Shown here: positions 21,116-24,445 of the stretch, one piece after another
How positions within the stretch are numbered: the stretch's first letter is position 1
Layout of the letters: each line of letters begins with the position of its first letter
Notes under the pieces: generated by a model
Told to the model about the DNA's origin: nothing
The model's input: only the letters and a program-made list of their open reading frames with translations
Database searches by the model: none
NCBI GenBank assembly: GCA_014654035.1
Contig: JACWDQ010000002.1
Location: 49,776-113,775, forward strand
Reading direction: 5' to 3'
Length of the DNA: 64,000 nt
Source of the DNA: Pelagibacterales bacterium SAG-MED19
GTDB taxonomy: Bacteria > Pseudomonadota > Alphaproteobacteria > Pelagibacterales > Pelagibacteraceae
Position numbers and translations under genes: made by a program

Positions 21116-21441
21116 TGACTTATATAGTTAATGAAAAATGTATTAAGTGCAAACTTATGGATTGCGTTGAAGTTTGCCCCGTTGATTGTTTTTATGAGGG
21201 AAAAAATATGCTTGTAATTAAACCGGATGAGTGTATAGATTGTGGCGTTTGTGAACCAGAATGTCCAGTTGACGCCATCGTTGCTGATACTGAAACTGGT
21301 AGCGAAAAATGGTTAGAAATAAATAAACAATATTCAGAAATCTGGCCTAACATAAGTGAAAAAAAAGATCCTCCTTCGGATCAAGAAAAATATAGAGATG
21401 AGAAAGATAAATTTAAAAAATATTTTAAAGAAAACCTTTAA
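21115..21441 (+). CDS. fdxA: Seven-iron type ferredoxin
   Basis: [21 protein letters not shown] ... [16 protein letters not shown]. Confidence 0.95.
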
Positions 21442-22258
21442 AAAAAAAGTATCTCCAAAAAAAACAAAAAAACAAAAAACTACCAAAATTAAAAAAAAGA
21501 AAAAAATAAAGTCAAAAAATGAAGTTAAGAAAGTAAAAAAAACTTCCCTTAAATTATCTAAAAAAAAAGATAGTAAAGTAGAAATTAAATCAAATGACAA
21601 TTTAAGAATTCCAAAAAGCAATGAATCAAAACCAGAAATTAAAAAAGTAAAAAAACAAGAAACTGAAAAGAGAGAATATAAAATAAAGGATTATGTAAAT
21701 TACCCAAAACATGGGGTAGGACAAATCACAGAATTCAAGAAAATTAATATTGGTGGCATTGATGTAGAGACTTATATTATCAAGTTTGAAAAAGATAAAG
21801 CAAATGGTATGGTCCCAGTAAACAAACAATCCCATCTACGACCTTTAGCTACAATAAATCAAATCAATAAATGTGTTTCAATTTTAAAAAGCAAACCTAA
21901 AATTAAAAAATCTATGTGGAGCAGAAGAGCCCAAGAATACGAAGCAAAAATATCATCTGGAAAAATTTATGAACTAGCTGAAGTAGTGCGAGATTTGAAT
22001 AAAGGAGATGACCTAATGGTTGACCAATCTTACAGTGAAAGACAACTTTTTGAAAAAGCCTATGAAAGAATTCTGTCAGAATTTCAAATTGTTCTAAATC
22101 TTTCTTTAGAAGATACCCAAAAAAAGTTAGATAAAGCTCTTAAAAGAAATATTGCAGTACAACCTGATAAACCATCTACTACACCGGATAAAGCCTCAAC
22201 AACTCAATCGGAAATTTCTGATGAAGAATCTGTTTCTGAAAATGAAGAAGCTTTATAA
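21398..22258 (+). CDS. CarD-family transcriptional regulator with Lys-rich N-terminal extension
   Basis: CarD domain [20 protein letters not shown]...; about 90 aa of poly-basic N-terminus; probable start at 21398 (internal Met of the listed ORF at 21356). Confidence 0.88.
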
Positions 22259-22260
22259 AA

Positions 22261-22302
22261 AAAAACGCCTCTCACACGAAAATCGTTATGAGAAGCGTTT
22301 TT
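22261..22302. terminator. Bidirectional intrinsic terminator
   Basis: AAAAACGC-c-TCTCA ... TGAGA-a-GCGTTTTT hairpin with T/A tracts on both sides, between carD (+) and the 22322..22399 ORF (-). Confidence 0.85.
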
Positions 22303-22321
22303 AATAAAGAATACTAAGTTA

Positions 22322-22399
22322 TTATCTTCTTCTTCTTTTTTTAGCTTTTTTCTTAGCTTTTTTCTTAGCCTTCTTTGCTTTTTTTCTTCTCTTAGGCAT
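22322..22399 (-). CDS. 25-aa Lys/Arg-rich microprotein (MPKRRKKAKKAKKKAKKKAKKRRRR)
   Basis: ATG preceded by SD-like AGGGAGCTAAAG; own downstream terminator. Confidence 0.65.
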   Translation of the reverse strand: MPKRRKKAKKAKKKAKKKAKKRRRR

Positions 22400-22422
22400 C
22401 TTTAGCTCCCTTTTTAGTTAAA

Positions 22423-22439
22423 CGAATCAAAATGATTCG
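22423..22439. promoter_or_regulatory. Perfect 7-3-7 dyad CGAATCA-AAA-TGATTCG upstream of the Lys/Arg microprotein
   Basis: Direct reading of both arms. Confidence 0.5.
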
Positions 22440-22596
22440 CTATTAACTTATTTTTATTTTTTTATACAAGTAATGTCAATTCTTTAATTAAAGTTAAAAT
22501 TTTTAAAAAAAAATTAAAAATAAAATAAAGTTTTTTTAATTTGTAAGTGTAAAAAAGTTAATGTTTATGCGCTTTATAACCAAATATTTTACTAAA

Positions 22597-24297
22597 TTAA
22601 TAAAGTTTTTCTAAATCTTCTTTATATTTTTCTAAAATTTTTTTTCTTTTTAGTTTTAATGTTGGTGTTAACATTCCATTTTCAATTGTAAATTCTTCTT
22701 TAATTAATTTAAATTTTTTAACTTTTTCAACTAATGATAAGTTTTTATTTAAATTTTCCAAATAAAATTCAATTTCTTTTTTATTTTCTTCATTTTCACT
22801 AACAATTAATGCAACTAAATAAGTTTTTTTGTCTCCATAAACAAAACTTTGCTTAATTTTTTCATTAAGACATAATAAATTTTCAATTTTTGATGGTGAA
22901 ATGTTATCACCACCTAAATTAACTATTATTTCTTTTTTTCTATCAGTTATTTTAAGATTTCCATCACTGGTAAATTCACCAATGTCTCCAGTATGTAACC
23001 AACCATCTTTAATAATATCATCAGTTTCTTTTTTCATATTCCAATATCCAAGCATAACATTTTCACCCTTAACCAAAATTTCACCATCCTCAGCAATTTT
23101 TACTTTATTGGTTTTAAAAGGTGGGCCAACAGTCTCGATTTTAATTTTCCCTGGAATATTGCAACTCACAACGGGGGAGGTTTCAGTTAATCCATAACCT
23201 TGTAATGTTGGCAGTCCTATAGAGTTCAAAAATTCACCTATTTTTTGATCTAAGGCACCTCCTCCTGATACAAATGCTTTTAGTTTACCTCCAAACTGAT
23301 TTTTAATTTTTTTTCTTACTAATTTTTCACATAAAAAATCGATTATATTTTCCTTAAAATTTAGATCTTTACCATCCAAGTTTTTGGTCCCAAGATAAAT
23401 AGTATTTTCTATAAGTTTCTTTTTTAAACCTTTTTGTTTTGAGAAATTAAGAGAAATTTTGCTAAATAAATTTTGATAAAATCTTGGCACGGCTGTCATA
23501 ATAGTTGGTTTAGCTACGGCCATATTTGGTAATAATTTTTCTAAACTTTCAGCATAGTAAATTTTTGCTCCAAGCGATATTTGTACGTATTGAACAGTAT
23601 GTTCATATGAATGAGATAACGGAAGCCAAGTTAAAAAAACTGGTCTTTCATTTTTAACTAAGGAGTCCAAAATTTCTTGTGCTCCTTCACAATTTGATAA
23701 GATACCTCCGTGACTGAGCATTACTCCTTTGGGATTACCTGTAGTCCCTGATGTATAAATAATACAAGCCAAATCTTTTCTTAATATTTTGTCATTGAAA
23801 TTCTCAGAGATATTGATTGTTTCTTTTTTAGGATTTTTTTCTAAAATAGTTTCTATACTCTTAATTTTTTGATTAAAATTTTCAATTGAAATTACTTTTG
23901 TTTCACTAGAAATAAATTTTTCTATTTTTTTAAATTGAATATCATTTGAAATTATACATATCTTCGGTCTGCAATCATTAATTATATACTCGTAATCTTT
24001 CTCAGAATATGTAGTGAATAATGGAACTGTTACTCCACCTGCATTCATAATTGCTATGTCTGCTATAAGCCACTCTGGTCGATTTTCAGATAATAAAACA
24101 CATCTATCCCCTTTAGATAAACTTTTACTTAAATATTCAGAAAATAAAAAAATGTTATTTCTAACTTGTTCCCATGTTAAAAAATCATTTTCACCAGTTT
24201 TTAACCACTTTAAAAATGGCTGATTTGTCAGTTCTTTTTTTTCTTTATATTTTTCAAAAAAAAGCTCAACTAAACTGTTTATCTCTTTTAATTCCAT
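22597..24297 (-). CDS. Long-chain acyl-CoA synthetase / AMP-dependent ligase
   Basis: IIYTSGTTGNPKGVMLSHGG, GYGLTETSPVVS, GWLHTGDIGEF. Confidence 0.94.
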   Translation of the reverse strand: MELKEINSLVELFFEKYKEKKELTNQPFLKWLKTGENDFLTWEQVRNNIFLFSEYLSKSLSKGDRCVLLSENRPEWLIADIAIMNAGGVTVPLFTTYSEKDYEYIINDCRPKICIISNDIQFKKIEKFISSETKVISIENFNQKIKSIETILEKNPKKETINISENFNDKILRKDLACIIYTSGTTGNPKGVMLSHGGILSNCEGAQEILDSLVKNERPVFLTWLPLSHSYEHTVQYVQISLGAKIYYAESLEKLLPNMAVAKPTIMTAVPRFYQNLFSKISLNFSKQKGLKKKLIENTIYLGTKNLDGKDLNFKENIIDFLCEKLVRKKIKNQFGGKLKAFVSGGGALDQKIGEFLNSIGLPTLQGYGLTETSPVVSCNIPGKIKIETVGPPFKTNKVKIAEDGEILVKGENVMLGYWNMKKETDDIIKDGWLHTGDIGEFTSDGNLKITDRKKEIIVNLGGDNISPSKIENLLCLNEKIKQSFVYGDKKTYLVALIVSENEENKKEIEFYLENLNKNLSLVEKVKKFKLIKEEFTIENGMLTPTLKLKRKKILEKYKEDLEKLY

Positions 24298-24301
24298 AAT
24301 T

Positions 24302-24386
24302 TGGTGGGCGAAGAGAGAATCGAACTCTCACTTCTTGCGAAACACGATTTTGAGTCGTGCGCGTCTACCAGTTCCGCCATTCGCCC
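24302..24386 (-). tRNA. tRNA-Leu (anticodon CAA), CCA encoded
   Basis: GGGCGAA/TTCGCCC acceptor, CACGA-CTCAAAA-TCGTG anticodon arm, long variable arm, ACCA end. Confidence 0.95.
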
Positions 24387-24445
24387 TTAATAGTTTAATA
24401 ATTTATTAAATAGTATAAGAACTAAAATTATATTAAAACCAAAAA

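Follow-up and report, generated by a model that had tools for sequence, protein, structure and literature searches.

A conserved basic microprotein gene of SAR11 bacteria and its predicted pairing with the RF01814 hairpin

The stretch of DNA analyzed here (the window: 64,000 nt from the 1.01-Mb draft genome of Pelagibacterales bacterium SAG-MED19) contains an open reading frame for a peptide of 25 residues, nearly all of them Lys, Arg, or Ala. Is so short and so biased a frame a gene, what might its product do, and how might it be controlled? An initial annotation, made from the letters of the window, took it for a real gene with a good Shine-Dalgarno (SD) sequence, its own 5′ dyad, and a bidirectional terminator, and likened its composition to that of histone H1 tails. 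The frame, here called KRA, is present exactly as described, and the signals around it can all be recognized (Table 1). The reading favored here, to which we give a probability of about 0.72, is that KRA encodes a conserved SAR11 basic microprotein, most likely binding nucleic acid, and that, within the main genus, the RF01814 RNA exerts antisense control in trans on the KRA mRNA.

Table 1. Features of the KRA locus, in window coordinates
Feature	Position	Strand	Basis or remark
K/R/A peptide gene KRA, 25 aa, MPKRRKKAKKAKKKAKKKAKKRRRR	22322..22399	-	Open reading frame, syntenic orthologues, synonymous bias
SD sequence and spacer, GGGAGCTAAAG	22400..22410	-	Abuts ATG; near-invariant within genus
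Predicted antisense target, KRA mRNA -11 to +6	22394..22410	-	Complementarity to RF01814 hairpin loop
5′ UTR hairpin CGAATCATTTTGATTCG, dyad CGAATCA-AAA-TGATTCG	22423..22439	-	Sequence, fold, genus conservation
Promoter-like site: -35 TTGACA (22479-22474), 18 nt, -10-like AAAAAT	22450..22479	-	Sequence, relatives
Bidirectional intrinsic terminator common to KRA and carD; hairpin with U-run	22258..22304	.	Sequence, fold, relatives
carD-like gene, convergent to KRA, synteny anchor	21356..22258	+	True start likely downstream of listed GTG
Long-chain acyl-CoA synthetase-like gene, upstream same-strand neighbor of KRA	22597..24297	-	Open reading frame list, sequence

The KRA gene and its conservation

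Neighborhoods of relatives were collected with the convergent carD-like gene as anchor. Conservation of the frame, start, and SD, which the initial annotation had named as the check on its proposal, is found in most same-genus loci that reach far enough, at the same place beside carD. Across 105 copies from the genus the SD and spacer read GGGAGCTAAAG in 88 and GGGAGCTAAAA in 15; the 5′ dyad is kept in 103/103 copies, a TTGACA lies ~80 nt upstream in 99/99 relatives, and the terminator hairpin shared with carD is the same in relatives. These copies encode 38 distinct proteins of 20–35 aa. Within the window the SD 11-mer and the dyad occur once each, against 0.03 and 0.00 expected, which is far beyond chance. 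With a promoter of its own, KRA does not simply continue the acyl-CoA synthetase-like gene. The dyad could be an mRNA-stabilizing hairpin or an operator; outside the genus it is degraded in two genera (CGAATCA...GATTTG in g8 and g9) and absent in three (g5–g7).

The gene itself reaches further. Its synteny with carD holds for each genus of the Pelagibacteraceae that could be read, with products of 20–58 aa (21–24 in g8, 23 in g9, 31 in g6, 36–38 in g5, and 34–58 in g7), and in the sister family its position is taken by an H1-like protein of 85–89 aa (MEELKVIFAKARKKAKKKAAPKKKRKAAKRK...; 40 aa in one genome). The carD loci of 29 other Alphaproteobacteria have no KRA-like frame.

Between near-identical KRA copies, 57% of the changed codons are synonymous where 19% would be expected, a threefold excess. 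This bias bears on the possibility that the frame is untranslated, the locus being a small RNA whose purine-rich stretch reads K/R/A by chance. Such an accident is easier to imagine in an A-rich genome, and proteomics would hardly reveal the peptide, since trypsin would presumably destroy it, leaving single residues or very short pieces. It would not account for the synonymous bias, however, nor for length changes that keep the frame, the invariance of start and SD, or the far longer H1-like homologues in synteny, and can hardly be credited. By these comparisons KRA is a genuine protein gene, conserved SAR11-wide (Pelagibacterales); its syntenic orthologues and codon bias bear out what had been proposed from one locus. 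At 78 nt, the frame is probably one that annotation pipelines overlook, as the initial annotation supposed.

Two minor features of the neighborhood may be recorded. In the carD-like protein an N-terminal extension of ~90 residues, rich in Lys and of low complexity (window 21420-21700), precedes the conserved domain, and most matches to the protein from outside the order start near residue 95-105. Small frames overlapping the tRNA-Leu gene (24302-24386) on both strands (window 24288-24390) are spurious.

Composition and possible relatives of the peptide

Searches with the KRA peptide at E ≤ 1 gave no match in Pfam, NCBIfam, or PHROG, where composition bias may hide one, and the peptide matches no PDB chain, short low-complexity sequences being hard for profile tools. 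Its character therefore has to be read from composition and from its homologues. KRA and its longer homologues are rich in Lys and Ala (and Pro), variable in repeat length, and have a tail without acidic residues, as H1-like proteins do, and the AAPKK/KPAA-like repeats in the longer syntenic homologues of other SAR11 genera strengthen the comparison with histone H1 tails that the initial annotation had made. As far as sequence comparison goes, KRA is H1-like by composition only and not a member of a known H1 family. It is most likely a minimal H1-tail-like polycation that binds nucleic acid (the nucleoid); the protein would be expected to bind DNA.

The tails of AlgP, PhaF, and Hc2 offer a comparison: like the SAR11 proteins, they are Lys/Ala/Pro-rich, repeat-length-variable, and presumably disordered polycations (PMC9239181, PMC2848022), and SAR11 homologues of 50–89 aa contain AAPKKK/KPA units. 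The Pelagibacter KRA differs in being a mere tail of 20–35 aa, richer in Lys/Arg, with no further domain and no profile match. The homologues of the sister genera and family (loci L199–L207 and L020–L030), which extend from 20 to 89 aa via K/A/P-rich repeat units, amount to a natural length series of H1-like tails.

Size and charge, single copy number, and conservation across the order would also suit a ribosome-associated basic peptide (bTHX-like or bS22/AURKAIP1-like) in place of a nucleoid protein. Against this, neither a profile nor a PDB sequence match to bTHX or to small basic ribosomal proteins was obtained, the NCBIfam, Pfam, and PDB searches all ending without a match, and a length that ranges between 20 and 89 aa through repeat-like expansion of K/A/P is a habit of H1-like tails, not of ribosomal proteins. 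A ribosomal role for KRA is accordingly considered unlikely.

Complementarity to the RF01814 loop

The 14-mer GGGAGCTAAAGATG comprises the SD and start codon of the KRA mRNA. Its second genomic site, in reverse complement, is the loop of RF01814, the ‘rhtB’ RNA of Rfam. A survey of the order (197 genomes) found the 14-mer in 115/117 genomes of the genus, usually in exactly two copies, and in 0/80 outside it, with the caveat that conservation of the start region could also come from mRNA-only selection, which can freeze sequence near SDs; a reversed-pattern control gave 0. In the same genomes RF01814 was detected in 110/117 and 0/80, respectively, and the several genus genomes without it are mostly incomplete. 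Its scores are 64–90 bits across the genus and 79.3 in the window's own genome (gathering threshold 55), while the KRA locus, with 26 bits on the opposite strand, falls outside the family.

In the window's genome the hairpin lies away from KRA (G000:C10:5783-5865); loop complementarity and co-evolution fall outside the window, and were hence beyond the initial annotation. In reverse complement the loop, 5′-UUAGCCAUCUUUAGCUCCC-3′, reads 5′-GGGAGCUAAAGAUGGCUAA-3′, the stretch of the KRA mRNA that runs from the SD through the spacer and start codon to codons 2-3. Within KRA -11 to +6 the window's genome has a single mismatch to it, at +4. This reflects a CCT (Pro) codon 2 throughout the MPK clade (39 of 91 genomes, the window's included), uncompensated in a loop built for GCT; the clade's duplex consists of 14 contiguous pairs, the mismatch, and more pairs. 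In seven genomes (the window's and six that are 99–100% complete), no site other than the KRA mRNA and the hairpin comes within one mismatch of the 16-mer, and of 12,788 window segments it is the KRA start with which the loop forms the best duplex (-34 kcal/mol, z -6.2). Complementarity to the translation start of a target encoded elsewhere is what would be expected of a trans antisense small RNA.

RF01814 was described by Meyer 2009 (PMC2704228) from more than 1000 metagenomic copies, as an orphan element. The single stem, the conserved loop, and the position upstream of rhtB are all as described there, and the hairpin coordinates, in the genome taken as HTCC1062, are those of the published element (PMC2704228). 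The available parts of that paper propose cis regulation or termination, leave the function open, and link the element to no target, promoter, or second gene (PMC2704228); our literature search found no further paper naming it.

The hairpin set was gathered with a stem-and-loop pattern, which biases the stem statistics: 99.6% of cells in the 9-bp stem are paired, against 24–49% in slid controls, and covariation is modest, with double changes in 2 of 9 pairs. The Rfam search and a loop-only pattern are free of this bias, and the latter found the full hairpin at 120/120 loci. An extended -10 (TGnTAnnnT) stands 6–8 nt before the stem in 130/137 cases (shuffled mean 4; other strand 0/137), with a TGCA box farther upstream in 126/137. 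This promoter and the orientation of the hairpin imply that it would be transcribed with its loop antisense to the KRA mRNA.

The rhtB ATG follows 4–14 nt past the stem in 95/126 hairpins, and a T-run (≥5 T) follows the hairpin in 42/126. In the 31/126 with no rhtB behind them, promoter, stem, and loop are kept, and in two such cases examined (L051, L119) the next gene is convergent to the hairpin. That rhtB can be missing, or the gene behind convergent, suggests that the element is kept for something besides rhtB, and points to action in trans. RhtB itself is a LysE-family exporter (PF01810), whose best models, homoserine/threonine efflux, score below cut-off. The rhtB orthologues of other genera (g5–g9) have neither hairpin nor complement, and the KRA ribosome-binding sites there differ among themselves and from the genus form; in the sister family, where a cognate hairpin may still exist, a 3-mismatch search for another occurrence of the family's ribosome-binding site found no consistent second site, with matches at noise level only. 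The rhtB-less hairpins (L051, L119, L053, L095, L117, L343, L340) lie beside proC-like, dehydrogenase-like (convergent), glutaredoxin-like, or outer-membrane-like genes, apparently through gene loss around a retained small RNA.

The mRNA and the loop have also changed together. Two genomes with RF01814 but without the exact 14-mer gave the first variants, in which the mRNA reads GGGAGCTAAAAATGGC and the loop GCCATTTTTAGCTCCC. A screen of 399 genus genomes for this G>A change at mRNA position -1 found the variant form in 17. In G304 and G375 the match is one unrelated site, two canonical copies being present in each genome, and both were rejected; in G333 the variant was seen in the mRNA only, and G269 has the variant 15-mer twice, its second locus not being among those read. 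In all 13 variant genomes read at both loci, the -1 G>A of the mRNA is paired with C>U in the loop, and over the 91 genomes with both loci the position is G:C in 78, A:U in 13, and mixed in none. On a carD tree one genome (G283) is separate from the other variants, and an AU test rejects a single origin for all 15 (p = 0.001), though not for the 14. Tree and test together indicate at least two joint changes of the mRNA and the unlinked hairpin, so that compensatory co-variation, a mark of trans antisense pairing, is seen at one clean position, in two lineages. Two further single changes in mRNA or loop would be tolerable as G-U pairs (G187 at -4, G147 at -10).

Direction of control and known antisense systems

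In the proposed mechanism, a promoter of its own would drive a hairpin of ~47 nt, in most cases as the rhtB leader, its loop presenting the exact complement of the KRA SD, spacer, and start codon. With or without rhtB attached, this RNA would use the loop to pair with the start region of the KRA mRNA, which is open and A-rich, and the pairing would block ribosome loading or initiation. As a prediction, the pairing is well supported, because complementarity, uniqueness, and co-change agree; it would be expected to occur in cells, and a loop that covers both SD and AUG suggests that the hairpin represses translation of KRA.

The same pairing could also work in the other direction or in both, with the KRA mRNA as effector, through its abundant start region, and the rhtB leader as target, the leader stem being opened or locked by the encounter. 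The 3′ strand of the leader stem, AAGGACTATC, may hold the rhtB SD, 95/126 hairpins are within 4-14 nt of the rhtB ATG, a third of genomes (42/126, ≥5 T) have a U-run after the stem just before ATG, and cis regulation or termination is what Meyer 2009 proposed, as far as the available parts show (PMC2704228). But control of rhtB cannot be the sole selected role where 31/126 hairpins keep promoter, stem, and loop without it, some facing a convergent gene, and the KRA SD and AUG are a classic repressive target for a covering loop; reverse or mutual control is rather doubtful. A very improbable alternative is that the common 14-16-mer is a DNA or protein binding site, or that the two loci are homogenized by gene conversion. 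Both do hold the same word in double-stranded DNA, and conversion could copy a change from one to the other. The word lies exactly over SD and AUG at one locus, however, and in a conserved hairpin loop at the other, the directions of transcription make the two RNAs complementary, and the flanks are unconverted (CC vs AA at -12/-13, C vs G at +4), so that tracts shorter than ~16 bp would be needed.

Other candidates were tried and rejected. The SAM-II/SAM-V-like look of GAGCTAAAG suggested a riboswitch in the KRA leader, for which Rfam gave only sub-threshold noise (SAM_alpha, 10.7 bits). A decoy role, with the hairpin mimicking the KRA mRNA, is ruled out by promoter, orientation, and the sense of rhtB. 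Two viral-contig matches are chance occurrences in phage genes of 53-54% GC, and no viral copies of the KRA mRNA start were found. A Lys/Arg-starvation leader peptide was also considered, but nothing apart from the exporter family speaks for it.

A parallel to the predicted antisense repression of KRA is known from Chlamydia, where the regulated protein, HctA, is much larger than the KRA peptide. There the loop of the trans small RNA IhtA occludes the initiation codon of the mRNA for HctA (Hc1), a small, highly basic, H1-like DNA-binding protein (PMC4355289), as the SAR11 loop is predicted to cover the start codon of the H1-like KRA. IhtA has three stem-loops and a contact of ~7 nt (PMC4355289), while the SAR11 RNA is one hairpin, with 14-20 contiguous pairs extending from the SD to codon 2. 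By analogy, the SAR11 system is read as working like IhtA/HctA without being a member of it, the resemblance being convergent, and would be an independent case of antisense control of an H1-like protein at its start codon.

The small RNAs with C-rich anti-SD loops, such as S. aureus RNAIII and the CCUCC-loop RNAs of rhizobia and Rhodobacter, have loops that match generic SDs, and many targets. The SAR11 loop is likewise complementary to an SD, but fits the SD, spacer, AUG, and codon 2 of one gene. The orphan RF01814 RNA would thus gain a specific, single, and co-evolving target, a conserved gene of ~25 codons whose polycation product would escape tryptic proteomics. The cells concerned are among the most numerous on Earth, with few transcription factors and hardly any small-RNA circuits mapped.

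More tentatively, the hairpin might be a dual-output switch, at once the leader or expression platform of an amino-acid-exporter gene and the trans antisense repressor of a Lys/Arg-rich mini-histone. If so, transcription of the exporter would turn the polycation off, the polycation mRNA could act back on the exporter leader, and direct pairing between the two mRNAs would tie export to Lys/Arg economy or to nucleoid compaction.

The Pelagibacter arrangement of promoter, hairpin, and rhtB also occurs in a contig labelled as a Cytophagales MAG (L422, JAPYTU010000121.1), with 28% GC, which is probably binning contamination.
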